A stretch of 49,309 nucleotides of DNA from an uncultured Micrococcales bacterium (lineage in GTDB: Bacteria; Actinomycetota; Actinomycetes; Actinomycetales; Microbacteriaceae): contig CAJXZO010000006.1 in the NCBI GenBank assembly GCA_913062975.1, forward strand, positions 1 to 49,309. The letters are read 5' to 3'. Of this stretch, positions 25,073 to 39,453 are shown piece after piece. The notes beneath the pieces were generated by a model. The model was not told the DNA's origin. It was given only the letters and a program-made list of their open reading frames with translations, and searched no databases. The translations under genes and the position numbers were made by a program. The first letter of the stretch is position 1; every line of letters starts with the position of its first letter.

Positions 25073-26203
25073 CTAAAAAATTGCGACTGTGTGATCCTCG
25101 ATAAAGTCCCAGTCATATTCAATTCCTAGGCCAGGACCATTTGGGGCTTGAACTATTCCGTCAACAACATTCAATTTGGTTTTGGTGCCGAACTCAAAAT
25201 CTTCCCAAGGGTACAAAGTTTCAAAAAACTCACAATTCGACATCGCTAATGCTGCATGCAATTGAACCTGTTCTAAACCGTGGTAGATGGTTGTGTGAAG
25301 CTCACACTGAACCCCGAATGACTCAGCTAGGTGACCGGTTTTCATAACTGCGGTTAGGCCGCCACGCCAACTGACGTCGGTACGAACAATGTCCACAATG
25401 CCCTCTTTTATGCACCACGCGGTGGAGTAGTGCGCGCCTGCTAAAACCTCTGTTCCGCAGATTGGAATGTCGAGTTTCTCCCTGAGCTTTTTGAGGCCAT
25501 TGAAATTTACATCCAGCAGCGGCTCCTCCAACCAGCGATAACCGAGTCTTTCAAGTTCACGGCCTGCACGAAGTGCCTCTTCGTAGCTAGACATGATCAC
25601 TGGATCGGCCATCAGAGTGAAATCAGGGCCTACGGCCTCACGAACCGCACGGTAACACTCGATGTCACCCTCCACTCCCTTATTTGGTGGGTGTAACTTA
25701 TAGCCTTTGTAGCCCTTGGCCTTCACCTCTAGTGCCTGTGCGGCGTAATGTTCCGGACCAGGCAGGAACATAGAGCTTACATAAAGAGGTATTTCATGTT
25801 TGGCGGCACCCAGCAATTTATAGACCGGTTGTCCTGTGATCTTTCCAACGGCATCCCAGCAGGCATTATCAAAGGGAGCATAGGCGTAGATTGGAACATG
25901 GTTCCAACGCCTATCAAACATCTCAAAGTCCTTGAGGTTTTTATTGGCGTCGAAGACATCACGCCCAATAAAAAATGGTTTTACCTGACTCTGGGCAGCT
26001 GCCGCTGCCTTAGCGTCTAATGCTCCAAAGCCAAAAGACGTTCCAGTGGTGCCGTCCTCGGTGGTTATTGTGACAACCGTGAAGTCAGGTCTAGCGCCTC
26101 CCGGAAGATCCACCGAGACAACCTCTCCGCTGTCGTCTCCTGAAACATCTGGTCCCTTGCAGGCACGAATCTCTATTTCTTTGATTACACTGGCAGAATG
26201 CAT
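25073..26203 (-). CDS. Enolase-superfamily sugar-acid dehydratase (mandelate racemase subgroup)
   Basis: 376 residues. The start at 26203 (MHSASVIKEIEIR) has GGAG seven bases upstream; a longer frame to 26401 would run into the divergent gene and is not needed. The barrel carries a K-x-H motif (GYKGYKLHPP), metal ligands Asp (LMADPVI), Glu (WLEEPLL) and Glu (ICGTEVLAG), then RTDVSWRGG and the catalytic His in CELHTTIYHG. This fits an acid-sugar dehydratase or racemase of the mandelate-racemase group. It is distinct from the L-fuconate dehydratase at 32.4 kb, so the substrate is another acid sugar or an isomer. An ATCCTATAGGAT palindrome 14 bp upstream puts it in the fucose regulon. Confidence 0.82.
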   Translation of the reverse strand: MHSASVIKEIEIRACKGPDVSGDDSGEVVSVDLPGGARPDFTVVTITTEDGTTGTSFGFGALDAKAAAAAQSQVKPFFIGRDVFDANKNLKDFEMFDRRWNHVPIYAYAPFDNACWDAVGKITGQPVYKLLGAAKHEIPLYVSSMFLPGPEHYAAQALEVKAKGYKGYKLHPPNKGVEGDIECYRAVREAVGPDFTLMADPVIMSSYEEALRAGRELERLGYRWLEEPLLDVNFNGLKKLREKLDIPICGTEVLAGAHYSTAWCIKEGIVDIVRTDVSWRGGLTAVMKTGHLAESFGVQCELHTTIYHGLEQVQLHAALAMSNCEFFETLYPWEDFEFGTKTKLNVVDGIVQAPNGPGLGIEYDWDFIEDHTVAIF

Positions 26204-26216
26204 GAATGGCTCCAAA

Positions 26217-26228
26217 ATCCTATAGGAT
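26217..26228. promoter_or_regulatory. Fucose-locus operator, site A (ATCCTATAGGAT)
   Basis: Perfect 12-bp palindrome in the 88-bp divergent gap between the enolase-family gene and the FMN dehydrogenase gene. It is the reference for the other sites at 30.0, 31.8, 32.0 and 37.9 kb. Confidence 0.6.
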
Positions 26229-26291
26229 AGGACTAAGCTAGCACATTGTGGTGAATATCGCCACGTATGTCCGAAAAAGAAAGGCCAGAGA

Positions 26292-27557
26292 GTGGCAAAA
26301 GTAAAACGCAAGTTTCCAAACCCAAAAGATCTAGCGCCACTTATGCGCTTCAAGCCCTTCGAGCTGAATTCGAAGAAGCGAAGACTGAACAATGCATTCA
26401 CTATTGATGATTTGCGAAAAATTGCTAAGCGCCGAACCCCACAGGCACCATTTGATTACACCGACGGAGGTGCAGATGCTGAATTGACTATTAACCGTGC
26501 ACGCGAAGTCTTCGATGGCATTCAATGGCGCCCAAGGATTTTGCGAGATGTTTCTGAAGTAGATCTGAGCACTGAAATTCTAGGAACCAAAATGGACCTG
26601 CCCTTCGGAATCGCCCCGACCGGCTTCACCCGAATGATGCATACCGAGGGTGAGATTGCTGGCGCAACCGCCGCGGAGGCTGCGGGGATTCCATTCTGTC
26701 TTTCCACAATGGGAACTAGATCCATCGAAGAGGTCGCCGAGGCAGCACCAATGGGTCACAACTGGTTTCAGCTTTATATGTGGAAAGATCGTGACCGGTC
26801 TATGGCACTGGTGGATCGTGCCAAGGCGGCTGGTTTTGAAACACTGGTGCTGACTGTTGATGTTCCAGTACCGGGTGACAGACTCCGCGATAGGCGAAAC
26901 GGCATGACGATTCCGCCAACCTTAACCCCAAAAACCGTGATCAACGCAATCCCTCGGCCAGAGTGGTGGATCAACTTTCTAACCACCGAGCCACTGAAAT
27001 TTGCCTCACTCGACAGTTGGAACGGAACGGTGGCCGAACTACTGGAAAAGATGTTTGACCCAACCGTGAACTTCGAGGAGATGGCCTGGATCGTAAAGCA
27101 ATGGGGGGGTCCAGTTGTGGTGAAGGGAGTGCAAACGGTGGAGGACGCAGTTCTTTGCGTCAAAGCGGGTGCTACCGCAGTGCAGCTTTCAAATCATGGT
27201 GGCCGTCAGCTAGATCGTGCTCCGGTGCCATTCGAATTACTTCCAGATGTCGTTCGTGAGGTAGGTCAAGACGCTGAGATTCATCTGGATACGGGGATCA
27301 TGCACGGATCTGACATAGTGGCCTCGATAGCCGCAGGGGCAAAGTTCACATTCATTGGTCGTGCTTACCTCTATGGCTTAATGGCAGGTGGCCGCGAGGG
27401 TGTAGACAAAACCATCAGCATTTTGGAAGGTCAAATTGCCCGCACCATGAAATTGCTTGGAGTCAATTCTCTGTCAGAGCTTGGCCCAGAACACCTTTCA
27501 CACCTTCATCAGCAAACCGCCAAAAAGACCACCAAAAAACCACTAAAAGTTAGGTAG
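26292..27557 (+). CDS. FMN-dependent alpha-hydroxy-acid dehydrogenase, probable L-lactate dehydrogenase (LldD type)
   Basis: 421 residues, GTG start. The TIM barrel of the FMN alpha-hydroxyacid family is clear: [11 protein letters not shown] near the N-terminus with the substrate Tyr, [17 protein letters not shown], then [40 protein letters not shown] with the catalytic-region Lys, and [21 protein letters not shown] containing the catalytic His. Such enzymes oxidise L-lactate, glycolate or related 2-hydroxyacids to the 2-oxoacid. Here L-lactate is the expected end product of the fucose pathway, so pyruvate formation is a sensible role. A basic tail ([11 protein letters not shown]) is unusual. 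An RraA-like gene follows after 4 bp. Confidence 0.85.
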
Positions 27558-27561
27558 CAGT

Positions 27562-28221
27562 ATGAGCAATCTCTTCGGAACAGACCCCGCTGATTCAAAA
27601 ATTACGGTGGCCATGATTTCAGATTCCCTAGATGCGGTTGGTCTTCGAGACCAAGTCCTGGAGCGGAGGCTTACCGGGGTGCAGCCCGGCCGAAGAGCAA
27701 TTGGAATCGCCCGCACAGCTCGCTTCTCCCCTAGTGAGATTGTGGATCCAGAGAAACCTTACGATGACGCAATCGACTTCATAGACTCTGCGCAACCGGG
27801 TGATCTAATTGTGGTGGCAACTAATGAGTCAAACATCTCCGCTTTTTGGGGAGAATTATTTAGTGCAGCGGCTCTCGGACAAGGAGCAGTAGGCATGATT
27901 ACCGACGGAAACGTGCGGGATGTAGACAAAATTGTTGCCCTTGACTTTCCTGCATTTGCCCGTTCACACCGTCCAATTGACTTTAAAGGACGCATGAGGT
28001 TAGAGGTCAGTCAACAGCCGGTCTCCTTAGGGGGCGTCAACATCGACCCGGGTGACCTGGTAGCTGTGGACGATGACGGTTGCGTAGTTGTCCCAGCTCA
28101 ATCGGTGCCAGAAGTATTGGAGATTGCTCGCAATCGAGCCAAAGCGGAATCCACCGTGCTCACCGAATTACTGGAGGGCTCTACCCTGCGTGAGGTCTGG
28201 ACCCGACACGGAATTCTCTAG
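27562..28221 (+). CDS. RraA-like / HMG-aldolase family protein
   Basis: 219 residues. It has the swivel-domain pattern of the RraA family: GDLIVVATNESNISAFWGELFSAAALGQGAVGMITDGNVRDVDKI, where the G-x(2)-W-G and DG-x-x-RD residues bind metal and substrate in related 4-hydroxy-4-methyl-2-oxoglutarate/oxaloacetate aldolases. A role in cleaving or decarboxylating a 2-oxo acid fits its place directly behind a 2-hydroxyacid dehydrogenase. It is less likely to be a ribonuclease regulator. Its stop shares CTAG with the stop of the convergent GntR gene. Confidence 0.8.
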   Translation: MSNLFGTDPADSKITVAMISDSLDAVGLRDQVLERRLTGVQPGRRAIGIARTARFSPSEIVDPEKPYDDAIDFIDSAQPGDLIVVATNESNISAFWGELFSAAALGQGAVGMITDGNVRDVDKIVALDFPAFARSHRPIDFKGRMRLEVSQQPVSLGGVNIDPGDLVAVDDDGCVVVPAQSVPEVLEIARNRAKAESTVLTELLEGSTLREVWTRHGIL

Positions 28222-29021
28222 CTGGCTTCAGGTTGCGCTTCGCCGACACCATCTCGCTGTTGGATTGCCTGCATGGTTGGGCCAAATCGCAACCTGGATG
28301 ATTCGATGTGTTGGCGCATCAAAACGGTTGCCCTCTCAGAATCACCCTCGATGATTGCCCGAGCAATCGCCTCGTGCTCATAAAAGGCCAAAAAGCCGCC
28401 TGAGGGTTGGTAATAGAGTCTAAATATCTCACCAACCAGCTCGGCTTCTTCACGGTTGTTGCGAATGTAGCTCTGCAGCACTTGGTAAAGCCTGAACAGA
28501 TGAAGGTGACAATGGGTGCGATTGAAGGCATCACGAACCAAGTCACTGCCAGACATTCCGGAAATTAGTTGATGAAAACGAGCATCATGCTCACTCATGG
28601 CAGCGTATGCATCCTCAGGCCCAAGTTCGCCAGCTGCTCTTCCAGCGTCTAATTCCTTGTTTAGCGCCTCAACATCGCCCTCTGTTCGGTTTTGAGCAGC
28701 GGCACCCGCAGCCCAAGGTTCAATCACGGCCCGAAATTGAAACAGATCATCCAGTTGCCTAACATCCAAAAGCTGAGTTGCCGCATACCCTTTTAGCGGC
28801 TCCTTAATCACAAGATCTTCAGACTCCAGTCGAGCAAGCGCCTCTCGCACCGGGGTCTGTGAGACCTCTAGCTCGCGAGCGAGTGCGTCGATGTTGATTC
28901 GCTCCCCGGGAGCAATCTCATGGGTGAGAACCATCAACCGAATGGTGTCATATGTTTCGTCGCTAAGAACCATACGTTGTGGCCGCACCGTTCTTTTGCC
29001 CGATGACTTATTTGCAGCCAT
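28218..29021 (-). CDS. GntR-family regulator, FCD (FadR) subgroup
   Basis: 267 residues, AGGAGA before the ATG. The N-terminal winged helix (LARELEVSQTPVREALARLESEDLVIKEPLKGYAA) is followed by an all-helical FCD domain with a metal-binding pattern (D..FH..I, H...H near HCHLHLF, and a later HIESSRLRF). Proteins of this group usually repress sugar-acid genes and are released by the substrate or an intermediate. It is the only regulator inside the fucose locus and is the best candidate for binding the ATCCTATAGGAT palindromes. A weak version (CTCCTAGAGGCT, 29026-29037) overlaps its own ribosome site. Confidence 0.88.
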   Translation of the reverse strand: MAANKSSGKRTVRPQRMVLSDETYDTIRLMVLTHEIAPGERINIDALARELEVSQTPVREALARLESEDLVIKEPLKGYAATQLLDVRQLDDLFQFRAVIEPWAAGAAAQNRTEGDVEALNKELDAGRAAGELGPEDAYAAMSEHDARFHQLISGMSGSDLVRDAFNRTHCHLHLFRLYQVLQSYIRNNREEAELVGEIFRLYYQPSGGFLAFYEHEAIARAIIEGDSERATVLMRQHIESSRLRFGPTMQAIQQRDGVGEAQPEAS

Positions 29022-29168
29022 TTTTCTCCTAGAGGCTAAACTTATTCTCCCTATTCTGGTGGAAAATCAGCTAATCCAAGCGACTCACTTCAAAAAAATT
29101 AAATTAGTTATGAACATTAAGATGGCAAGAAGACCAATCATCGATTCGAAAACGCGCTCGCCAGGACG

Positions 29169-29918
29169 TTAGCGTCGAAGCCGAAGGTTATCCATGCCAC
29201 CGTCTACTGCCAATACGGTTGCTGTTGTTGAAGCTTGCAGGGGCGAGGCAAGGAAACAAACTGAACTGGCAACCTCGTTGTCAGTTATCAAGCGACGAAT
29301 TGGCTGGCGTTGATTTAGGGCCTCCAACTCGGCATCTGGATCTTCAGCCTGAGACAAAAGCCTCCTAATCCATGGAGTGTCCGTTGTGCCGGGATTGACG
29401 CAATTGACCCTAATTTTTTCATCAACATAGTCAGCCGCCATTGCGAGAGTTAGTGACATCACAGCACCCTTGCTTGCGCTGTATACAGCGCGCGCAGGCA
29501 AACCAACAGTTGCTGCAATTGAGCAGAGATTGACAATTGACGCGGAGTCGCTTTTGCGCAACCAAGGCATCGCAGCAGCTGAAACCAATGCGGTGCCAAC
29601 AACATTTACTCGAAAAACGTGATCCCACTCTTCCTCGGAAGCTGATTCAATTGTGCCGATTGAACCAACTCCAGCATTATTCACAACCACATCAATGCGA
29701 TCAGTCAATTTCTCTATCTCAAAAAATGCTTTCTCAACTGATGCTTTATCTGAAACGTCACACTGCAACCACTGCCCAGCTTCACCAAGCTCCCCTGGCT
29801 CCAGGTCTAGCCCAATCACACGTGCCCCACGCTGTTTCAGTAATCTCGAGGTGGCCAAGCCGATACCTGAACCACTTCCGGTGACTACCGCCACCAATCC
29901 CTCAAACTCTGCACCCAT
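29169..29918 (-). CDS. Short-chain dehydrogenase, probable 2-keto-3-deoxy-L-fuconate dehydrogenase
   Basis: 249 residues from the ATG at 29918, which has GGAGAG six bases before it; a TTG at 29969 would add 17 residues with no ribosome site. Classical SDR: VVTGSGSGIGLATSR (nucleotide loop), VVNNAGVG, catalytic Ser/Tyr/Lys in SIAATVGLPARAVYSASKGA, and CVNPGTTDTPWIRR. The acidic D after strand 2 (GLDLEP) favours NAD. In the non-phosphorylative fucose route this type of enzyme oxidises 2-keto-3-deoxy-L-fuconate to the 2,4-diketo acid. The neighbouring FAH hydrolase needs exactly that substrate. An L-fucose dehydrogenase role is the alternative. Confidence 0.8.
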   Translation of the reverse strand: MGAEFEGLVAVVTGSGSGIGLATSRLLKQRGARVIGLDLEPGELGEAGQWLQCDVSDKASVEKAFFEIEKLTDRIDVVVNNAGVGSIGTIESASEEEWDHVFRVNVVGTALVSAAAMPWLRKSDSASIVNLCSIAATVGLPARAVYSASKGAVMSLTLAMAADYVDEKIRVNCVNPGTTDTPWIRRLLSQAEDPDAELEALNQRQPIRRLITDNEVASSVCFLASPLQASTTATVLAVDGGMDNLRLRR

Positions 29919-29999
29919 CTCAATCTCTCCGGTTCTGCTAACAAAGTCGGTGATTTTTACAGCCCCCAATAATGAGTAGTAAAGAAGACCAAATACCGT

Positions 30000-30011
30000 T
30001 TACTGTAGGAT
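30000..30011. promoter_or_regulatory. Fucose-locus operator, site B (TTACTGTAGGAT), weak
   Basis: Nine of twelve bases match ATCCTATAGGAT, with the right half intact. It lies in the 187-bp divergent region between the SDR and lactonase genes. A second inverted repeat, CCCTA-N5-TAGGG, lies at 30040-30054. Confidence 0.4.
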
Positions 30012-30039
30012 ACACGATTTTGTGTTAGCCTGTCCGAAA

Positions 30040-30054
30040 CCCTACCAAATAGGG
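30040..30054. promoter_or_regulatory. Inverted repeat CCCTA-N5-TAGGG
   Basis: Five-base arms 52 bp before the lactonase start. It may be a relaxed version of the fucose-locus operator or a separate site. Confidence 0.3.
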
Positions 30055-30105
30055 CCGTATAGAGTGTCACAAGAACATAACAGCTAGCTTTATAGCCTTA
30101 GCCGC

Positions 30106-30978
30106 ATGAAGTCAGGGGAGAAATTGAACCAGCACAAACCGGCACGCATAATTGATTCGCATCAGCACCTCTGGGCGATTTCGGAGAGACCTTATGAATG
30201 GCTAGGCCCTGAATTAGGAGTCCTGTACCGGGATTACCGAATGCCCGATGTTCAACCAAGCCTTGATGCTGCCGGAATAAATTCAACAGTTTTAGTCCAA
30301 GCCAGCGATTCCTACGCTGACACCTTTGCAATGATTGCTGAAGCGAATAAAACCGCTCAAATAGTTGCAGTTGTTGGATGGGTCCCCCTCGATCGACCGG
30401 CTGAAGCTCAAGTTGCAATCGAGGCCTACCGGCCAAGCGGTGTTGTCCGAGGGATTAGGGCACTCACCCATGGCTATGACCAGCTTGACTGGATTGCTCG
30501 AGATGATGTTTCTAGCACTCTGAAACTCCTCTCTGAGGAAGGCTTTTCCCTTGACTACGTGGGCACTGGACCAGAGCACCGCGAATCAATACTGCAGGTG
30601 GCTCGCAGCCATCCACAACTAAACATTGTGCTTGATCACTTCACAAAACCAGACATCGCCGGAGGGGAATGGGAGCCTTGGGCAAGCAGCATGAGCGAGT
30701 TGGCAAAGCTTCCTAATGTCTATGCAAAAGTTTCTGGCCTGAACACCCTGTCAAAGCCCAATTGGCATGCCGATGATTGGAAGCCTTATTTGAAATTCAT
30801 GATTGAACAGTTCGGCAGTGAGCGACTAATGATTGGAAGCGATTGGCCTTTTGCTGAACTGAATGGACATTTTGAACAGGTTTGGAGTGCTTTGGTTGAG
30901 ATTCTTAACGACTACTCGCCCAAGCAGCAAGATGATATCTATTTCAAAACCGCCGAAAGCTTTTATCGACTGGCTTAG
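30106..30978 (+). CDS. Amidohydrolase, probable L-fucono-1,5-lactonase
   Basis: 290 residues of the COG3618 amidohydrolase group. It starts with the metal motif IIDSHQHLW, continues with GWVPLDRP, RGIRALTH and the barrel strand VLDHFTKPDI, and ends with IGSDWPFAEL, where the Asp is the metal-bound base. Members of this group hydrolyse sugar lactones such as L-fucono-, L-rhamnono- and galactaro-lactones. Between a fucose mutarotase, fuconate dehydratase and other fucose genes, L-fuconolactone is the obvious substrate. Its stop overlaps the FAH gene by 4 bp in convergent orientation. Confidence 0.85.
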   Translation: MKSGEKLNQHKPARIIDSHQHLWAISERPYEWLGPELGVLYRDYRMPDVQPSLDAAGINSTVLVQASDSYADTFAMIAEANKTAQIVAVVGWVPLDRPAEAQVAIEAYRPSGVVRGIRALTHGYDQLDWIARDDVSSTLKLLSEEGFSLDYVGTGPEHRESILQVARSHPQLNIVLDHFTKPDIAGGEWEPWASSMSELAKLPNVYAKVSGLNTLSKPNWHADDWKPYLKFMIEQFGSERLMIGSDWPFAELNGHFEQVWSALVEILNDYSPKQQDDIYFKTAESFYRLA

Positions 30979-31835
30979 TCTGCATCAACAACTGTTTGCG
31001 AGGAACTTCCCAAACGTTGAATTGAAAGTGTCATGACATCACCTGGCTTCAGGTAAAGCTCCGGCTTGTGTCCCAGACCCACGCCTGGCGGGGTTCCGGT
31101 GTTAATCAAATCACCCGGCTCTAAAACTAGAAACTGACTTAGGTAGTGGACCAAAAAGGCGGGATCATAAACAATTTGGTTGGTCGAGCTGTCTTGCTTC
31201 ACCTCGCCGTTTAGTTCCAAACGCATCTGAAGGTTACCAACATCCCCAACCTCGTCCGGGGTGACCAGCCACGGACCTGCTGGGTTAAATGTTTCACTAC
31301 TTTTACCCTTTGACCACTGTCCCTGACGTTCGAGCTGGAATTCTCTTTCGCTTACATCGTTGACCACCACGTATCCGGCAATGTGGTTTGCCGCCTGCTC
31401 AACGCTTTCAACATAGCGAGCACGTCTGCCGACAACCACTCCCAGTTCTATTTCCCAGTCGGTCCTTTTTGATTTACGAGGAATCTTGACCGAATCGTTT
31501 GGTCCAATCAGGGTATTTGGGCTCTTAGTGAAAATGATTGGCTCCGGTGGCACCTCTGCTCCGGTTTCCTCGGCGTGATCTCTAAAATTCAATCCAATGC
31601 AGATTATTTGGTGCGGCCGGGTGAAGGGGGCGCCAATGCGCTCACCAGCAAGCTTCTTGACCTCGCCGGCGGCTATCCGTGCATCAACCTGGGGTCGAAT
31701 GCGCTCTATGCCGTCAGAGCCAAAGAATTCTTCGTTGAAATCTGAAACCAGGTCAGAAACATCAACGTAGCTGTCTTCATCAATTGCCACAACTGGGCGT
31801 TCAGACCCAAATTCACCTATTCGCATTAGTCGCAT
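30975..31835 (-). CDS. FAH-family hydrolase, probable 2,4-diketo-3-deoxy-L-fuconate hydrolase
   Basis: 286 residues. The fumarylacetoacetase-like domain is clear: CIGLNFRDHAEETG, PIIFTKSPNTLIGPND, the metal ligands in DWEIELGVVVG, VVNDVSEREFQ, KSSETFNPAGPWLVTPDE and NTGTPPGVGLG. Such enzymes cleave a carbon-carbon bond of beta-diketo acids. In the L-fucose pathway of Xanthomonas and Burkholderia the homologue yields pyruvate and L-lactate. Two ATGs (31835 and 31826) are close; the first is taken. A near-operator (ATCCTATATGAA) lies 7 bp upstream of the start. Confidence 0.83.
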   Translation of the reverse strand: MRLMRIGEFGSERPVVAIDEDSYVDVSDLVSDFNEEFFGSDGIERIRPQVDARIAAGEVKKLAGERIGAPFTRPHQIICIGLNFRDHAEETGAEVPPEPIIFTKSPNTLIGPNDSVKIPRKSKRTDWEIELGVVVGRRARYVESVEQAANHIAGYVVVNDVSEREFQLERQGQWSKGKSSETFNPAGPWLVTPDEVGDVGNLQMRLELNGEVKQDSSTNQIVYDPAFLVHYLSQFLVLEPGDLINTGTPPGVGLGHKPELYLKPGDVMTLSIQRLGSSSQTVVDAD

Positions 31836-31841
31836 CCCATA

Positions 31842-31853
31842 ATCCTATATGAA
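31842..31853. promoter_or_regulatory. Fucose-locus operator, site C1 (ATCCTATATGAA)
   Basis: Nine of twelve bases match the reference palindrome, with the first eight identical. It sits immediately upstream of the FAH-family gene. Confidence 0.42.
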
Positions 31854-31990
31854 TTTTTGAGCTTAGATGCTCCCTCTTTTTGAGAAAAGTTCCCCGTATA
31901 TAGTGAGAATTTGAGTTGGGGCATGAATCTAAGAGGCAATTTCGGTAGTGCTACCCTCAGAATTAATTAAGTCAAAACAAAACGTCCAAT

Positions 31991-32002
31991 ATTCTATAGG
32001 AT
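31991..32002. promoter_or_regulatory. Fucose-locus operator, site C2 (ATTCTATAGGAT)
   Basis: Eleven of twelve bases match ATCCTATAGGAT. It lies 33 bp upstream of the preferred mutarotase start and about 150 bp from site C1, so both sides of this divergent region are covered. Confidence 0.55.
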
Positions 32003-32034
32003 TAGCAAAGATGGAATCCCAGAGAGGTGGCGCC

Positions 32035-32358
32035 TTGAAAAGAGTTGCAAGCGTAATTGGCCTGAAAAGTGAAGATCTTGAGGAGTATGAACGCATTCAC
32101 GCGGAAGTTTGGCCCTCCGTGCTGGAACGAATCAAAAAAAGCAACATTCGAAACTATTCGATCTATCGCTATGGAAATGTCTTGTTTTCCTACTTTGAGT
32201 ATGTAGGTGAGGATTTTGAGGCAGACATGGCAGAAATGGCTAAAGATTCCGAGACCCAGCGCTGGTGGAAAATAACTGATCCAATGCAATACAAGCTTCC
32301 GGAGGCTGGTGCCGACGAGTGGTGGCATGAGCTACCCGAAGTTTTTCACACTGACTAG
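32035..32358 (+). CDS. L-fucose/L-rhamnose mutarotase family protein
   Basis: 107 residues from the TTG at 32035, which has GAGAGG seven bases upstream and gives the usual family N-terminus ([10 protein letters not shown]); the ATG at 32011 is the alternative. It has the small alpha+beta barrel pattern of the L-rhamnose mutarotase family (DUF718): [44 protein letters not shown] and [12 protein letters not shown]. These proteins interconvert anomers of 6-deoxy sugars, which supplies the anomer taken by the dehydrogenase. It leads a run with fuconate dehydratase and the aldo-keto reductase. Confidence 0.88.
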
Positions 32359-32398
32359 GCCGCAAAGAAGTCAAATCCCTAATCACAGAGAGCAAATA

Positions 32399-33700
32399 AT
32401 GAGCACGATAACCGGTTTCAAAACCTCGGACATGAGGTTTCCGACATCGAAAAGTTTGGATGGGTCGGATGCGATGAATGCAGATCCCGATTACTCTGCT
32501 GCTTATCTGGAAGTCGTTACTGACTCTGCTGATGGACATAGTGGACATGGTTTCGTTTTCACTATTGGACGTGGAAACGACATCCAAGTCTCGGCGATAA
32601 AAGCCCTGGAGCCTATGTTTATTGGCAAAAACACCGAAGAGCTGCTTGAAGACATGGGTGCAACCTGGAAGTTGATGGTGCACGATTCTCAGTTTCGGTG
32701 GCTAGGGCCTGAAAAAGGTGTCATGCACATGGCTATTGGTGCGGTAACCAATGCCCTATGGGATCTAAAGGCCAAACGAGCAGGACTCCCCCTTTGGCTG
32801 CTTTTGGCTCGGATGAGTCCAGAGCAACTGGCTGATTTGGTGGATTACCGATACATATCAGATGTAATAACCAGAGATGAAGCCATTGAATTTTTTAGCG
32901 CCCAGCTACCTGGCAGAGAGGCACGGATTAATCATCTGATTGCCGAGGGATATCCCGCCTACACGACCAGCCCAGGTTGGTTGGGCTATGACGATGCCAA
33001 ACTAACCAGGTTATGCAAAGAGGCGCTAGCGGAAGGTTTTGGACAGATCAAGCTAAAGGTGGGTGCCGACCTGGAAGACGATAAGCGTCGCTTCCGAATC
33101 GCTCGCCAGGTCATGGGGGATGACTACCCGATTGCCATAGACGCTAATCAACGCTGGGGTGTGCAGGAGGCAATCGATTGGGTTAGTGAACTGCGTGAGT
33201 TTGACCCGGCCTGGATAGAAGAGCCGACCAGCCCAGATGATCTTTTAGGACATGCGACTATTGCCCGCGGTGTGCACCCGATACGAGTTGCCACCGGCGA
33301 GCACGGTGCAAACCGAGTCATGTTCAAACAGCTAATGCAGGCAGAGGCGATTCATGTGGTGCAAATTGACGCTGCACGTGTTGCGGGTGTGAATGAAAAT
33401 ATCGCAATCATGTTGATGGCGCGCAAGATGAATCTGCCTGTTTGCCCGCACGCGGGAGGTGTCGGTCTATGCGAGGCGGTGCAGCATTTATCGATGTTTG
33501 ACTACGTTGCCCTTTCTGGAACCATGGAGGGTCGCATGATTGAGTATGTCGATCACCTGCACGAGCATTTCCTAGACCCAGTTGTCATTAGGAAGGGTCG
33601 CTATCAAGCCCCTGAACTGCCAGGAGCAAGCAATGAGATTTACCCGAAATCAAGAACCGGATTTGAATTTCCAGCCGGTTCAGAATGGAGAGATGGATAA
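32399..33700 (+). CDS. L-fuconate dehydratase
   Basis: 433 residues from the ATG at 32399, the start usual for the family ([14 protein letters not shown]). It belongs to the fuconate dehydratase branch of the enolase superfamily, also represented by human ENOSF1. Visible are the capping domain with [12 protein letters not shown] and [12 protein letters not shown], the base IKLKVG, metal ligands [19 protein letters not shown] and ATGEHGANR, and the catalytic His in [12 protein letters not shown]. It dehydrates L-fuconate to 2-keto-3-deoxy-L-fuconate with Mg2+. The TAA overlaps the next ATG (TAATG), indicating coupled translation. Confidence 0.92.
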
Positions 33701-34698
33701 TGCAAATTAAAAAAATTGGCAGGTTTGGTCTGGAGGCTCCAATACTGTCTTTTGGGTCAGCCCCGATAGGAAATTTATTTCGCGAAGTTAGTGACGCTGA
33801 GGCCCATGGGGCGATTGAGGCAGCCTGGGAAGGTGGCGTTAGATACTTTGACACAGCTCCGCACTACGGTCTTGGACTTGCCGAGCGTCGTTTAGGCGAA
33901 GCTCTCTCGCAATATCCAAGAGATGAGTACCTGATTTCAACAAAGGTGGGTCGACTGTTACAGCCCACAGATGACTACCCAGGGGAAAATGACCTTGCTG
34001 ATGGCTTTATGGTGCCGAAGGATTTTGTTAGGGACTATGACTACTCTGGAGACGCCATAAAGCGTTCAATCGAGGAATCCTTGCACCGATTGAACACCGA
34101 CCAGATAGATATTGTGTTCGTTCATGATCCAGATGATCACTACCAAGAGGCTCTGGATGGGGCATTTCCAGCATTATCTCAACTTCGCGATGAGGGCGTG
34201 ATTCAGTCCTTCGGATCAGGCATGAATCAAGCTGAGATGCTGACCGACTTTGTCCGCTACACGGATCTTGATGTGATCATGTTAGCCGGACGCTACACAT
34301 TGATTGAACAGCACTCATTGGATAACCTGTTGCCTCTGGCTCACGAGCGCGAGGTCAGCATTGTTGCCGCGGGGGTGTTCAACTCTGGACTCTTATCAAA
34401 AGACCGTCCCGCCGCTGATGCCTCATATAACTACGCTCAGGCACCGGCTGAGCTGATAGACAAAGTCAATGAGATTGCGGATATCTGCGAGGCACACGGG
34501 GTGAGCCTACCGGCTGTCGCTGCTCAATTCCCCCTGGGTCACGAGACGGTTTCTAACATCTGCCTAGGCGCACGTAACTCTGAACAAGTCGCTCGAAATG
34601 TGCAGCTTTTCGATGTTGATATTCCAGTCGATCTCTGGAAAGACCTCCGAGATGCCTCAATAGTTAGGCCGGAGTCAGTCGCAGCTTTTGTTGACTAG
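33700..34698 (+). CDS. Aldo-keto reductase, probable L-fucose (D-threo-aldose) 1-dehydrogenase
   Basis: 332 residues from the ATG at 33700, coupled to fuconate dehydratase through TAATG with GGAGAG upstream. The AKR barrel shows the tetrad: Asp and Tyr in FDTAPHYGLGLAERRLGEAL, Lys in ISTKVGR and His in VFVHDPDDH. The length and the PAILSFG-like start agree with Pseudomonas-type L-fucose dehydrogenases, which make L-fucono-1,5-lactone with NAD(P). It supplies the first oxidative step, fitting the mutarotase and lactonase nearby. It ends tail-to-tail with a fucosidase gene, sharing CTAG. Confidence 0.87.
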   Translation: MQIKKIGRFGLEAPILSFGSAPIGNLFREVSDAEAHGAIEAAWEGGVRYFDTAPHYGLGLAERRLGEALSQYPRDEYLISTKVGRLLQPTDDYPGENDLADGFMVPKDFVRDYDYSGDAIKRSIEESLHRLNTDQIDIVFVHDPDDHYQEALDGAFPALSQLRDEGVIQSFGSGMNQAEMLTDFVRYTDLDVIMLAGRYTLIEQHSLDNLLPLAHEREVSIVAAGVFNSGLLSKDRPAADASYNYAQAPAELIDKVNEIADICEAHGVSLPAVAAQFPLGHETVSNICLGARNSEQVARNVQLFDVDIPVDLWKDLRDASIVRPESVAAFVD

Positions 34699-36032
34699 CT
34701 TCTCATAAACGAAATTACCTGAGGAAGCTTGCTCTCGGAGCCAACGGAATCCAATCGGACTTTATTGCCTATCCGCTCAATTGCAACTTCAGCGCCACCT
34801 AGCAATCTAGCTGAGTCATCCCGAACCAAGCTCGAGGGAAGATCAAATTCGATTGGTTGTTTTGACTTTAGGAAAACATAGAGTCGGTCCTCGAAACCAG
34901 TGAAGCGAACCCAGGGAGTTTCACCTTCTGATTTATCGCCTACTGAATTCAGCTCAGGAACTGGCTGACTACCGTGAATTGATTCAGCGTTGACATCCAT
35001 CCATGCCGCGATTCCGCTAAGTATTTCAACTTGAATTGGCGGAAGCTCACCGTTGGCCATTGGGCCCACGTTTAGCAAGAAATTGCCGCCGCGTGAGACC
35101 ACATCCACAAGGTGGCTAACCGACTGCTCAACGCTCATGTAGTGCTCTGAGGTTTCGACACGGTTATAACCAAAGCTATAGCCGATTCCGCGGTTATTCT
35201 CAAACAGGCCGCGATCCTCATGCTCGACATTCATCTGATACTCGCTAGTGATGTAATCGTGATGCTCAACGCCCCAGCGATCGTTCACTAGACCCTCTGG
35301 CACCTTCGAATAATAAAGATCAAAAAGTGCAGCCAGCGAATAAGGAATCTCTGGTCCACCCTGTTTAGAAAAATCAGGCCAATTGATGTCATCCCAAAGA
35401 ATATCTGGCTGGTAACGACGAATCAGGTCTGCGCAGTGCTCAAATGCATACATGGAGTAGGCGGCATCGTTTGGACGCTCTCCACCGGTGGCCTCAAATT
35501 CACTGTGAGGGGGAAGGTTGGTTACACTCCAGTCAAGCCCACCCGAGTAATAAGTTCCAAACCTTAGGCCCTCTGCCCGAACAGCCTCGGCAATCTCACC
35601 AATCAAGTCTCGCCTGGGGCCCCGATGCACGGTGTTGCGAGTGCCTGTGCCGGGAGCATCCCACAAAGCAATTCCGTCATGGTGCTTGGTGACCGGAATC
35701 ACATACTTGGCTCCAACCGACCTAAACAGTTTGGCCCAACTCGAAGCATCGAATCTCTCTGCCTTCCAGTTATCCAAAAAATCATCGTATGGAGCACCTC
35801 CATAAACATCCTGATGATGCTTCCAAGCGGGGCTTCCCTCAATGCGAATCGTGTTGAAATACCACTCCGCATAAGGGTTGTGGGCAAACCAAGTTTCGCC
35901 CTCGATGGTTCCCAGTTCACCAATTGGCTCGGCCCAGGCAGGCACCGAATAAGCTCCCCAGTGAATGAAAATTCCAAACTTTGCATCCAAATACCACTGT
36001 GGTGTTGCTCTTTTAAATTGACTCCAGTCCAT
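34695..36032 (-). CDS. Alpha-L-fucosidase, GH29 (paralogue 1)
   Basis: 445 residues, AGGAGCAACG before the ATG. GH29 barrel: FGIFIHWGAYSVPAW near the N-terminus, VIPVTKHHDGIALW (fucose-binding His pair, 117-118), and the nucleophile Asp215 in ILWDDINWPDFS. GIGYSFGYNRVE follows in the acid/base loop region, then a C-terminal beta-domain. There is no signal peptide, so it acts in the cytoplasm on imported oligosaccharides. Last gene of a three-gene minus-strand unit (37807 to 34695). Confidence 0.93.
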   Translation of the reverse strand: MDWSQFKRATPQWYLDAKFGIFIHWGAYSVPAWAEPIGELGTIEGETWFAHNPYAEWYFNTIRIEGSPAWKHHQDVYGGAPYDDFLDNWKAERFDASSWAKLFRSVGAKYVIPVTKHHDGIALWDAPGTGTRNTVHRGPRRDLIGEIAEAVRAEGLRFGTYYSGGLDWSVTNLPPHSEFEATGGERPNDAAYSMYAFEHCADLIRRYQPDILWDDINWPDFSKQGGPEIPYSLAALFDLYYSKVPEGLVNDRWGVEHHDYITSEYQMNVEHEDRGLFENNRGIGYSFGYNRVETSEHYMSVEQSVSHLVDVVSRGGNFLLNVGPMANGELPPIQVEILSGIAAWMDVNAESIHGSQPVPELNSVGDKSEGETPWVRFTGFEDRLYVFLKSKQPIEFDLPSSLVRDDSARLLGGAEVAIERIGNKVRLDSVGSESKLPQVISFMRS

Positions 36033-36055
36033 CGTTGCTCCTTTGCTTTTTGAAC

Positions 36056-36478
36056 CTAGTCGCTATTGCTAAGGCCAATCTGCTTTCGAAGCACGCTGGA
36101 ATCCCAGGCATCAAAACCCGACACAACCATGCCGTCTTTTACCCTATCTATGGAAACTCCATCAACTTCAATTTGGTTACCACTCGGTGGCGCCCCCCAG
36201 AACTCACCGGTATGAGTGCCGGTGAGTACCCAGCGAGTGACTACAGTGTCTGTCTCGCTGTCGGCGATCAATTCCTTAATTTCGAAATTGACATCCGGAA
36301 ACGCTGACCTCCAACCCCGCCACTGTTCGCGAAAGCTCTCACGACCAATTCCGAACTGCGGATCATTGCCAGCGGCATTCTCGGCGATGAATCGATCAAT
36401 TGCAGATTCATCGCCTTGGTTCCATATTTGTTCAAAAAAATCAGAGGCTATTTTTTTTAGCTCTGCGTTGGTAGCCAA
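36056..36478 (-). CDS. SnoaL/NTF2-like small protein
   Basis: 140 residues, TTG start. The fold pattern is that of SnoaL-like cyclases/isomerases in the NTF2 superfamily: a first helix (FFEQIWNQGDESAIDRFIAENA), FREQWRGWRSAFPDVNFEIKELIAD, TRWVLTGTHTGEFWGAPPSGNQIEVDGVSIDRVKDG. Many actinobacterial members have no known reaction. Its place between two fucosidase genes, with gaps of 9 and 23 bp, implies the same transcript. A role on a sugar or a glycan modification is only a guess. Confidence 0.75.
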   Translation of the reverse strand: MATNAELKKIASDFFEQIWNQGDESAIDRFIAENAAGNDPQFGIGRESFREQWRGWRSAFPDVNFEIKELIADSETDTVVTRWVLTGTHTGEFWGAPPSGNQIEVDGVSIDRVKDGMVVSGFDAWDSSVLRKQIGLSNSD

Positions 36479-36487
36479 ATTGCATCT

Positions 36488-37807
36488 TCACTTTCTGCTG
36501 AATCGAACAACGGTTGGAAGCTCGGGGTTGGATGATGAAAGCGAGAGGTGTATTGCATCACCACTGCGGCTCACCGCGACCGCTCCACCACCCATTTGCT
36601 GCGCACTTTCATCCTGAATTAGAGAGGCAGGCAAGTTGAGGCTCGTCTCTCCCGTTCCCTTGATGAATGCGAATATGGACTCGCCCTTAGCAGTGAATCG
36701 AACCCATGGCTCATCGCTTGGCTGAAGCTCAGAAATCGCCCGGGTGCCATGAATCGCATCGCTATTGATGGCCATCCACTCAGCAGTCCCCTCCAGAATC
36801 TGACGCTGAATCGCTGGAATCTCGCCACTTGCGGTCGGGCCGACGTTTAACAAGAAATTACCACCGCGACTGACGATGTCGACCAAGTGACTGAGTAGCT
36901 GAGAAACAGACATGTAGTGCTCTTCGGTTTCCACCTGGTTGTAGCCAAAGCTATAACCTATCCCTCTGCAGTTTTCAAACAGGCCTTGACCCTCGAGATC
37001 CGTCTTCAGCTGGTATTCACTGGTGATGAAGTCTTGGTGGGTGTCACCCCAGCGGTCATCAACCACACCTGTCGGCACTGCGTCATAGTAATTTTTAAAA
37101 AGTGACGCAAGAGAGTATGGAACCTCCGGTCCCCCCTGTTTTGAGAAATCAGGCCACTCAATATCGTTCCAAAGAACCTCGGGTTCATGCTTGCGAATAA
37201 GGTCCATGCAATGTTCGTAGGCATACATTGAATAAGCAGCGTCCTGAGGGCGCACATTGGACACCTCGTGATGATTGGTCAACGGAGGAAGATTTGTGAT
37301 GCTCCAGTCGAGGCCTCCAGAGTAATAAACACCGAAGTGTAAGCCGCGATTTTTGGTTGCCCGTGCGATATCTCCAATTAGGTCCCTTTTCGGCCCGCGG
37401 TGCACGGTGTTTCGGGTTCCAGTGCCGGGCGCATCCCAGAGTGTAATTCCGTCATGGTGTTTTGAGGTCGGCACCACATACCTCGCACCAGCCCGCTCAA
37501 ATAAATCCACCCAACTGTCTGGATCAAAGTTCTCGGCTTTCCAACTGTCGAGGAAATCATCGTAGGGCGCACCACCATAAACCTCCTGATGATGTTTCCA
37601 AGTTGGACTCCCCTCAATCCGAACTGTGTTGAAATACCATTCTGCGTAGGGATTGTTGGCGAACCAGGTTTCTTCCTCAACCGCTCCCAGCTCACCAATT
37701 GGCAATGCCCAGGCTGGCACCGAATAGGCGCCCCAGTGAATAAAGATTCCGAACTTGGCGTCTGCGTACCACTGCGGAACCTCACGTTGAAATTGCGACC
37801 AATCCAT
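36488..37807 (-). CDS. Alpha-L-fucosidase, GH29 (paralogue 2)
   Basis: 439 residues with GAGGAC before the ATG. It is close to the 34.7-kb and 42.7-kb fucosidases along its whole length: FGIFIHWGAYSVPAWALPIG, VVPTSKHHDGITLW, nucleophile region VLWNDIEWPDFS, GIGYSFGYNQVE and FLLNVGPTASGE. No signal peptide. The C-terminal beta-domain (after ~340) is the most divergent part. It is the first gene of the minus-strand unit. The operator ATCCTATAGGGT lies 50 bp upstream. Confidence 0.93.
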   Translation of the reverse strand: MDWSQFQREVPQWYADAKFGIFIHWGAYSVPAWALPIGELGAVEEETWFANNPYAEWYFNTVRIEGSPTWKHHQEVYGGAPYDDFLDSWKAENFDPDSWVDLFERAGARYVVPTSKHHDGITLWDAPGTGTRNTVHRGPKRDLIGDIARATKNRGLHFGVYYSGGLDWSITNLPPLTNHHEVSNVRPQDAAYSMYAYEHCMDLIRKHEPEVLWNDIEWPDFSKQGGPEVPYSLASLFKNYYDAVPTGVVDDRWGDTHQDFITSEYQLKTDLEGQGLFENCRGIGYSFGYNQVETEEHYMSVSQLLSHLVDIVSRGGNFLLNVGPTASGEIPAIQRQILEGTAEWMAINSDAIHGTRAISELQPSDEPWVRFTAKGESIFAFIKGTGETSLNLPASLIQDESAQQMGGGAVAVSRSGDAIHLSLSSSNPELPTVVRFSRK

Positions 37808-37856
37808 CTTGTCCTCGTTTTTCTTTTGTTACTACGGGATTCTATTGCTTGCCGAT

Positions 37857-37868
37857 ATCCTATAGGGT
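37857..37868. promoter_or_regulatory. Fucose-locus operator, site D (ATCCTATAGGGT)
   Basis: Eleven of twelve bases match the reference palindrome. It lies in the divergent region between the fucosidase unit and the transporter unit. Confidence 0.55.
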
Positions 37869-37900
37869 TACACTAACGTATCGCTGTGGTGAGGGTTATA

Positions 37901-37925
37901 ACAAATTTGTATAACTTCATGAAGT
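37901..37925. promoter_or_regulatory. Two further palindromes upstream of the transporter operon
   Basis: ACAAATTTGT (37901-37910) and ACTTCATGAAGT (37914-37925) are both perfect. They lie between site D and the solute-binding protein gene, about 120-145 bp before its start. Possible sites for a second regulator. Confidence 0.35.
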
Positions 37926-38046
37926 GTTTGGCAAAAAGGAATTTTTGGCACTAAGGTAAAAATCACATCGGATATAGGTTTCGATGTTGAGTTCACTCTC
38001 TGATGAGAAATTAGGGAGAAACTCTTTAGCCCGTAAGGAGAAGTGC

Positions 38047-39453
38047 ATGACAAACAAGTCCAAATCAAGGTGGTGGACGGTTGGCGCATCGATTCCAATC
38101 ACAGCAATGGTGCTGACTGGTTGCGCTGCAGAAACTGACACCACATCAGAAGGCTCCTCATCAGATGGTGGAGGCACAACTGAATTAACCGAAGATCCAG
38201 TAACCGTGAGTGTTCAGTATGAGGTTCCAGAAGACGGACCTGACGCCCGCGCTTGGCGTGCGGTTGCAGACGCTTTTGAAGCAGAGTACCCCAACGTGAC
38301 TGTCGAATTGCAGGGAATCACAAATGAGGCCAAGGGAGGACCGAACCTTCAGGTTCTAACTTCATCTGAGGCCCCAGACATTGCTCTGATTCCTCTCAAT
38401 TCAAATGTGTACACACAAATGGTTCGAGCTAACGAGCTGGTAGCCCTAAACGATATTTTCGAAGAGGATAATTTTCCTGAGCGTCTAGGACCAGCGTCAG
38501 CAGCGTTGCTGCAGGCCGATGGAAATTATTACGCAGGTCCCAACACCGTTGCTTATTACAACATTCTTTGGACCAACCCTGATGCACTTGCAGATGCAGG
38601 AGTGACCGTTCCCGAGGATCGTGTTTTCGAAAGCCCTGAGGCTCTCATTGAAGCAAGCCAGAAGTGTAACGACGCAGGTTATGCAGGCTTGGCTATTGGT
38701 GGATCGACAAACTACATGGCAGGTTGGATGTTGGATGCTCATCTACCTACGGCGGTTCCGGCTGCAGATTTCAACAACCTTTTGGCTAGTTGGAAGTCAA
38801 ACGTGGATGTCACAGCAAACTACACCGACCCAGGCGTAGTTGAGGCAATTGACACTATTGGACGCTATGCCGCTGCAGGTATTCACCAAGACGGGTACCT
38901 AGGCCAGGATGGTCCAGCGGCTGAAGCACTGTTCACAACTGGAGGCGCTTGCTTGATGATCGGTGGCTCTTGGATGCCAGGAGGCACCTTTGCTGATGCA
39001 ACCGAAAGCGGAGAGATGACTTTCGAGGCAGACTTCGCTTTGCTACCTCCTGTCGGTGATAGCGGAGCACCCTCTCGTTTGACCCCTTACTATGGAAACG
39101 CCTACGGTGTGCCCAAGCAAGCTGAGAACCCTGATTGGGGAAAGAAGCTATTGCAGTATTACCTCAGCGATGAAGGTCAGAGACTAGGTGCTGTCGAAGT
39201 CGGTGGCTTCCTACCGGCTGTGACAACAGTGTCCGTTGACGACGTTGAGACTTTCCCCACACTGGTGAAAGACATCGTTGAGTATGTGGCCGAAAATGGC
39301 TCAAACTCTGGTTGGACCTCTGAGGTGCCTGGTGCGTTTGGGCAAACCTTCATAGCTCCATACTTACAGCAGCTACAAGAAGGTCTAATAACGGCCGAGG
39401 AAATCGCTGAAATACAACAGCAAGAGCTGGAAAACTATAGAGCACAGGGTTAA
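38047..39453 (+). CDS. Sugar ABC transporter solute-binding lipoprotein
   Basis: 468 residues from the ATG at 38047, with AAGGAG upstream; an earlier ATG at 37984 would put a charged stretch before the signal and is unlikely. The signal ends in the lipobox LTGC (AMVLTGC-AAE), followed by a Ser/Gly/Thr-rich tether. The rest is a family-1 (carbohydrate) binding protein: VQYEVPEDGPDARAWRAVADAFEAEYPNVTVE, DIALIPLNSNVY, YNILWTNPDALADAGV and GVPKQAENPDWGKKLLQYYL. With four cytoplasmic fucosidases encoded downstream and upstream, fucosylated oligosaccharides or fucosides are the probable ligand. Confidence 0.92.
   Translation: MTNKSKSRWWTVGASIPITAMVLTGCAAETDTTSEGSSSDGGGTTELTEDPVTVSVQYEVPEDGPDARAWRAVADAFEAEYPNVTVELQGITNEAKGGPNLQVLTSSEAPDIALIPLNSNVYTQMVRANELVALNDIFEEDNFPERLGPASAALLQADGNYYAGPNTVAYYNILWTNPDALADAGVTVPEDRVFESPEALIEASQKCNDAGYAGLAIGGSTNYMAGWMLDAHLPTAVPAADFNNLLASWKSNVDVTANYTDPGVVEAIDTIGRYAAAGIHQDGYLGQDGPAAEALFTTGGACLMIGGSWMPGGTFADATESGEMTFEADFALLPPVGDSGAPSRLTPYYGNAYGVPKQAENPDWGKKLLQYYLSDEGQRLGAVEVGGFLPAVTTVSVDDVETFPTLVKDIVEYVAENGSNSGWTSEVPGAFGQTFIAPYLQQLQEGLITAEEIAEIQQQELENYRAQG

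Follow-up and report, generated by a model that had tools for sequence, protein, structure and literature searches.

A recurrent palindrome as the likely operator of an FCD-type GntR regulator in an actinobacterial L-fucose locus

How might a bacterium with a small genome control its use of L-fucose, an abundant algal sugar, and which protein would read the control sites? The question is raised by a 49,309-nucleotide contig (CAJXZO010000006.1, our C6; the whole stretch is called the window here) that belongs to a metagenome-assembled genome (MAG) of an uncultured Micrococcales bacterium, 1,136,117 bases long and 79% complete. An earlier note on this DNA had picked out by eye a palindrome, ATCCTATAGGAT, at five places in gaps between divergent genes of a fucose locus, and had assigned it to the only regulator seen inside that locus, a GntR-family protein with an FCD domain. 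Our analysis indicates that these five palindromes are very likely the operators of this FCD-type protein, which we predict to act as the repressor of an L-fucose regulon. The finding is also wider than the one put forward in the note, in that a branch of FCD proteins, spread over two or more phyla and serving several pathways, appears to use the sequence ATC(C/G/A)TATA(G/C/T)GAT.

Re-reading the letters of the window confirmed all five positions (Table 1). When 13 sites from three other genomes are used to train a weight matrix, with the window excluded, the same five rank as the top five places of the window, and the next best place scores 9.9. Throughout the 1.14 Mb of the genome, the palindrome is matched with at most one mismatch only three times, each time in the fucose locus. 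Every site lies in a gap between divergent genes, as had been claimed, provided that 32011 or 32035 is taken as the mutarotase start in preference to 31948, the first GTG of its open reading frame (ORF). The gap between the hydrolase and mutarotase genes holds two sites, 138 bp apart, and measures 149 bp from start to start. When the window was shuffled 20 times, the top matrix score of each shuffle fell between 11.0 and 18.3, and the case for the fifth site is therefore one of conservation rather than score. Another site-like match precedes gntR at 29026-29037, but this is probably a ribosome-binding site (AGGAG adjoining the ATG) and it was not counted.

The earlier note had named conservation upstream of orthologous genes as the check on the motif, and the palindrome is indeed present there in the three aquatic relatives that we compared (G349, G105 and G212). 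All genome-wide matches with at most one mismatch fall inside the fucose cluster in each of them (2/2, 3/3 and 3/3, respectively). Sites precede the RraA-mutarotase unit, the FAH-family hydrolase gene, the second enolase-family gene (enolase 2) and a further gene for a short-chain dehydrogenase/reductase (SDR) in all three, and in G349 they are also found before lldD, before the unit of fucD and the aldo-keto reductase (AKR) gene, and before the ATP-binding cassette (ABC) operon. Gene order varies among these loci, yet the regrouped transcription units carry their own sites, and full palindromes also stand before genes that lack a divergent partner. Among all 4096 palindromic 12-mers, ATCCTATAGGAT ranks first in 22 held-out upstream regions, occurring in 7 at no more than one mismatch (the next palindrome in 2) and in 13 at no more than two (the next in 5). 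Across the whole loci of the relatives it is first at one mismatch (7 matches, the next 3) and seventh at two mismatches.

The two weakest sites share in this conservation. Site 4, in the form ATCCTATA[T/C]GAA, precedes the hydrolase gene in all three relatives, and equivalents of site 5 precede the SDR-gntR unit in four of four genomes in the form tgtATCCTA...TAAa, with the full half ATCCTA kept. Thus, the weak fifth site is the most telling for conservation, and it is probably autoregulatory. The earlier note had also tied enolase 2, the lactate dehydrogenase and the RraA-like protein to fucose use, and the sites support this: enolase 2 and the lactate dehydrogenase have the perfect site in common, and a separate site precedes each of the three genes in one or more of the relatives.

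The regulator carries an N-terminal GntR winged helix-turn-helix (HTH; PF00392, 51 bits against a cut-off of 27) and a C-terminal FCD domain (PF07729, 75.2 bits against a cut-off of 24.3). The FadR/FCD subfamily (Suvorova et al., 2015; PMC4494728) resembles the present case in its GntR HTH and FCD domains, in its 10-12 bp palindromes with an A/T centre, in the occurrence of sites in divergons and in the expectation of one half-site per monomer. However, the proposed operator, TCCT/AGGA, departs from the TKGT/ACMA boxes typical of this subfamily, with CT/AG in place of the consensus GT/AC. Exceptions to the consensus have been published (PMC4494728), and so the assignment of the regulator to the FCD group stands. 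The same study left out motifs that did not fit the consensus, and the present motif was not found in the available part of that paper.

The departure in the operator has a possible counterpart in the protein. With residues numbered after Suvorova et al. (PMC4494728), the regulator has Asp28 and Gln38, and thus lacks Arg38, the residue that reads the G of GT in the FCD subfamily. In both profile and structure alignments Gln38 aligns with Arg45 of Atu1419, a VanR-type FCD repressor of Agrobacterium fabrum that offers the closest architecture with a solved DNA complex and that binds a 10-bp palindrome, ATGTATACAT, of the same spacing (PMC7797058). Arg45 of Atu1419 (position 38) contacts G3 of that palindrome, and a change of G3 abolishes binding (PMC7797058), whereas here the matching base is C, in TCCTATAGGA, and the residue is Gln. 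In addition, an Asp28-C contact is predicted at positions 6/14 (PMC4494728), which fits the C of TCCT. With Arg38 replaced by Gln and Asp28 present, both operator changes would stand opposite changes in the protein, a correspondence that homologous contacts suggest.

We defined a class of FCD regulators with Asp/Glu28 and no Arg38, and read the residues by profile alignment in a pooled set of 154 FCD regulators from which repeats had been removed. The set drew on 26 loci (L012-L037) chosen for likeness to the regulator of the window; on 80 loci (L065-L144) that were the first 80 FCD matches listed, with one place omitted; on 29 loci (L192-L220) found with profile A1, which included the motif-found genes L189 and L190; and on 16 plasmid loci selected by organism, out of 166 records, ahead of any look at the motif in them. 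L195 is the same gene as L189, so that one of the 49 class members first came to attention through the motif search.

A site with at most two mismatches lies within 1.5 kb of 30 of the 49 class members, but of none of 87 regulators with Arg38 and none of 18 others, a link that supports the earlier assignment of the sites to the GntR/FCD protein. When only the upstream region is considered, the counts are 22/49, 0/87 and 0/18 (class against Arg38, Fisher p = 4e-12, with kinship ignored). The canonical ATTGTATACAAT gives the reversed pattern (0/49 in the class, 10/87 with Arg38, 1/18 among others). Within the class, none of the four members with Phe replacing the wing Tyr has a site, as against 30 of the other 45. 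As a modest positive control, ATTGTATACAAT is the top palindrome in the Arg38 set at one mismatch only (5/88, the next 4), and GC-rich palindromes lead over it at two mismatches.

The link can also be followed from the sites to the regulators. The first 80 listed FCD places, all in Microbacteriaceae, provided 84 regulators. Those with a genome-wide site of no more than one mismatch inside 6 kb number 7 of 8 class members, 2 of 68 regulators with Arg38 and 1 of 8 others. The single case among the others is the neighbour of a class gene, and the two Arg38 cases led to two further FCD genes lying between pairs of sites (in G008 and G003), both Asp28/Pro38. Hence, two class regulators were predicted from the sites and then found. 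Of the 16 genome-wide sites in 19 Microbacteriaceae genomes, 13 have a class member no more than 7 kb away, and for the other 3 the stretch examined contains none (2 matches for a reversed control pattern). A further 16 genomes hold 12 sites (3 control matches), of which 9 lie in the locus of a class member and 3 do not. When 246 genomes of the bacterial (taxonomic) class were scanned for exact matches, the site of the window and two others came up, the latter both beside Asp28/Pro38 genes. A profile search across the phylum found sites for 5 of 6 class members, 1 of 19 regulators with Arg38 (two mismatches, 1.7 kb away) and 0 of 4 others. On plasmids, a site with at most two mismatches stands no more than 400 nt upstream of 8 of 9 class members from Alphaproteobacteria, 2 of 4 from actinobacteria and none of 3 non-class regulators; the site of Sinorhizobium sp. 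B11 is perfect.

Several of these places merit separate mention. The Asp28/Pro38 class regulators of L183 (G004), L173 (G008) and L174 (G003) each have a ATCCTATAGGAT-type site on either side, in a cluster that we take to resemble one for four-carbon acid-sugar breakdown; the L183 sister-branch cluster presumably encodes a DUF1537-type kinase, a dihydroxyacetone-kinase-like protein and a triosephosphate isomerase. At L184 (G019, 5386 and 5647), a perfect ATCCTATAGGAT is found 261 nt from an FCD-like protein whose HTH is degenerate (Glu28, Ser38, FSLPSAALRVAL).

How the class acquired its site bears on whether the two residues are responsible. In a tree of the FCD part alone, a single group of 54 rows takes in 48 of the 50 class rows and six further rows that lack Arg38, but no row that has it. 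The class thus approximates one group, in which case the link to the site may have been inherited once and the residues need not be its cause. The well-supported (starred) branches permit only two independent pairs, which falls short of establishing a repeated origin. We consider it reasonably probable that an FCD branch found in Actinomycetota and Alphaproteobacteria, and serving different acid-sugar pathways, changed its DNA code a single time, when loss of Arg38, with Asp/Glu28 and a Gly-Tyr wing, converted the site from ATTGTATACAAT to the degenerate palindrome given above.

Taken together, these observations are best explained by the following mode of control. A dimer of the regulator would bind the ATCCTATAGGAT-type sites, whose distance to the nearest start codon downstream, 6 to 49 nt, suits a repressor acting by obstruction of RNA polymerase. 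Transcription would be blocked at four divergent promoter regions, namely those of enolase 2 / lactate dehydrogenase-RraA, SDR-gntR / lactonase, FAH hydrolase / mutarotase-fucD-AKR and fucosidases / ABC uptake operon, and the five sites in these four gaps would place the whole locus under control; where two sites share a gap, each may serve its own gene. Because the unit of the regulator itself has the weakest site, it would be repressed less than the targets, and the regulator could persist while these are shut. HypR of Streptomyces coelicolor, also an actinobacterial FCD repressor of a catabolic locus, likewise represses its own promoter more weakly, but its motif retains the GT/AC pair and it serves another pathway (PMC6608401). 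Given that FCD proteins usually bind small acids (PMC4494728), we infer that release would be brought about by an acid intermediate of L-fucose breakdown, either fuconate or its keto-deoxy or diketo-deoxy product.

A number of observations weigh against this interpretation. Two of the three aquatic relatives, G105 and G212, belong to one genus, so that the three amount to about two lineages. In more distant fucose-type loci of larger, GC-rich genomes (L051-L058), three of eight have no site at two or fewer mismatches and some matches in the remainder fall within enolase-family coding sequence; few of the GC-rich close homologues (L012-L019) have a site nearby. The window shows no enrichment at three or fewer mismatches (19 matches against 13.7 expected, a number reached by 9 of 100 shuffles), and for this reason the weak sites cannot be defended from the window alone. 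Moreover, for 19 of the 49 class members no site lies within 1.5 kb, and six places with at most one mismatch (L175, L176, L177, L178, L180 and L181) have no such regulator within the stretch examined; these may belong to distant class members or be matches by chance. The class group has an SH-aLRT value of 83 and is not a firm branch, so that a part for residues 28 and 38 in the change of site is an inference. Statistical contrast is also limited at smaller scales: within the window the palindrome ties with three others of the 4096, each with three matches at no more than one mismatch; at no more than two mismatches the genome has 11 places against 8 for a reversed control pattern, a small excess; and in the small family set alone (n = 5) the palindrome ranks 41st at two mismatches.

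Could the sites instead belong to another protein, local or global and encoded elsewhere, with the GntR protein using a canonical FCD site? The incompleteness of the MAG means that regulators may be missing from it, and a second, unrelated palindrome near the uptake operon suggests that another factor may act in the locus. Even so, ATCCTATAGGAT tracks this FCD class through different pathways and two phyla, the sole other FCD protein found in the genome carries Arg38, and the window has no ATTGTATACAAT-type site with fewer than three mismatches, all of which makes a different owner improbable. We give still less credence to the notion that the palindrome is merely a pair of overlapping divergent -10 promoter boxes, with ATCCTA|TAGGAT presenting TAGGAT on both strands. 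Every site does lie close to start codons in a divergent gap, TAGGAT fits a TANNNT-type -10 box, and transcription of the FAH gene could plausibly be leaderless, starting 6 nt past TAGGAT. But a general promoter element should occur genome-wide rather than being confined to one locus at one mismatch, the full palindromes before non-divergent genes of the relatives do not fit, and the link to one regulator class would go unexplained. A promoter scan of 25900-38200 was uninformative here, with five promoter-like matches, below the shuffle mean of 11, and no sigma-70 match at the sites. The two ideas may be partly true together if an operator covers a -10 box.

A third alternative, unlikely though the least improbable of the three, concerns the mode of action: the regulator might activate rather than repress, or sites 4 and 5 might be non-functional and only the three strong ones working. 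Their two and three mismatches and their scores within reach of shuffled windows would allow this, as would the lack of a sigma-70 match at the sites. Conversely, both sites are kept before the same genes in three relatives, the spacing to the start codons suits steric repression, and the characterised relatives Atu1419, HypR and PxpR are described as repressors in the available literature. Repression by the FCD protein through all five sites continues to be the reading that we favor.

The genes of the locus form a complete-looking oxidative (non-phosphorylating) L-fucose pathway, as judged from homology: four alpha-L-fucosidases, an ABC uptake system, a mutarotase, an aldo-keto reductase, a lactonase, the L-fuconate dehydratase FucD, an SDR and a hydrolase (Table 1). 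Substrates of FucD and the hydrolase are predicted by strong homology and those of the remaining enzymes are tentative; the candidates for L-fucose dehydrogenase, lactonase and keto-deoxy-fuconate dehydrogenase belong to matching families, with the lactonase below its curated cut-off. L-Fucose is 6-deoxy-L-galactose, and the aldo-keto reductase resembles L-galactose dehydrogenases. A diketo-deoxy acid hydrolase of the L-2,4-diketo-3-deoxyrhamnonate type releases pyruvate and L-lactate, and this end of the pathway would account for the co-regulated lactate dehydrogenase, since an LldD-like enzyme can oxidise the L-lactate released. The RraA gene follows the lactate dehydrogenase gene by 4 bases and has no site of its own in the window.

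Table 1. Candidate operators and genes of the fucose locus in the window
Feature	Position	Strand	Placement	Basis or score
Site 1, perfect ATCCTATAGGAT	26217-26228		13 nt before second enolase-family gene (-), 63 nt before lldD (+)	matrix 21.8, window rank 1
Site 2, ATTCTATAGGAT, 1 mismatch	31991-32002		before mutarotase-fucD-AKR unit; 8 nt to ATG 32011 or 32 nt to TTG 32035	matrix 18.5
Site 3, ATCCTATAGGGT, 1 mismatch	37857-37868		49 nt before alpha-L-fucosidase gene (-), 178 nt before ABC substrate-binding protein gene (+)	matrix 18.3
Site 4, ATCCTATATGAA, 2 mismatches	31842-31853		6 nt before FAH-family hydrolase gene (-)	matrix 17.1
Site 5, weak, 3 mismatches, one full half-site	30000-30011		SDR-gntR 30 nt away, lactonase gene 94 nt away	matrix 12.3
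GntR/FCD regulator, 267 aa, Asp28 and Gln38 (HTH numbering), proposed operator owner	28218-29021	-		domain profiles, alignments
SDR, probable 2-keto-3-deoxy-L-fuconate dehydrogenase	29169-29969	-	upstream of gntR on same strand	family match; substrate suggested by pathway
Amidohydrolase, probable L-fuconolactonase	30106-30978	+		best NCBIfam model L-fucono-1,5-lactonase, 141 bits, below 400-bit cut-off
FAH-family hydrolase, probable 2,4-diketo-3-deoxy-L-fuconate/rhamnonate hydrolase	30975-31835	-		8gsr, E 2e-70 (family level)
RhaM/FucU-type mutarotase, start codon uncertain (32011 or 32035)	32011-32358	+		
L-fuconate dehydratase FucD	32399-33700	+		2hne, E 4e-179, 1-431 aligned to 1-431, Xanthomonas-type enzyme
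Aldo-keto reductase, probable L-fucose dehydrogenase	33700-34698	+		best solved relatives are L-galactose dehydrogenases
Second enolase-superfamily acid-sugar dehydratase	25073-26203	-	site 1 here	family match; own sites in three relatives
FMN (flavin mononucleotide)-dependent alpha-hydroxyacid dehydrogenase, LldD-like, probable L-lactate dehydrogenase	26292-27557	+		family match
RraA-like aldolase-family protein	27562-28221	+		family match; own site in three relatives
Alpha-L-fucosidase	36488-37807	-		Pfam PF01120
ABC transporter substrate-binding protein	38047-39453	+	first gene of sugar-uptake operon	

Three further features of the locus can be recorded. The second enolase-family dehydratase and the RraA-like protein remain in the regulon in three relatives, and together they may serve a second acid sugar. 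A SnoaL-like protein (36056-36478) with no obvious role in fucose use is encoded between two same-strand fucosidase genes. Finally, a 17-base near-perfect inverted repeat, TATAACAAATTTGTATA (37897-37913), shares the gap with site 3 and lies nearer the ABC uptake operon; the window holds no second copy at three or fewer mismatches.

The nearest named loci with this regulator are in MAGs of Aquiluna and Pontimonas, in the family Microbacteriaceae, a placement that the available literature also gives. The oxidative L-fucose pathway of Xanthomonas campestris, for which FucR regulons have been predicted (PMC5507952), has the same enzyme steps and a FucD of the same family, but concerns other organisms and transporters. 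We found no report of the palindrome or its halves as an operator in open-access text, a search that leaves aside logo-only motifs, supplements, RegPrecise and subscription papers. String matches in the literature (PMC13274462, PMC6449761, PMC4576408 and PMC9769921) were set aside, as they comprise CTATAG in a GlxR site, a BoxR motif and, for the others, a LexA site and primers.

For the organism, these results turn a motif spotted by hand into a defined L-fucose regulon of small-genome aquatic actinobacteria, one that gains a lactate dehydrogenase, a second acid-sugar dehydratase and an RraA-like protein. For the family, they suggest that a whole branch of a very large group of regulators departs from the published consensus, in which case regulon predictions that assume TKGT/ACMA would miss the branch. 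A swap of the two residues offers a direct test of how FCD proteins read DNA, and if the proposed change of code is true, then for a member of this branch that is still uncharacterised, two residues could suffice to predict the operator.

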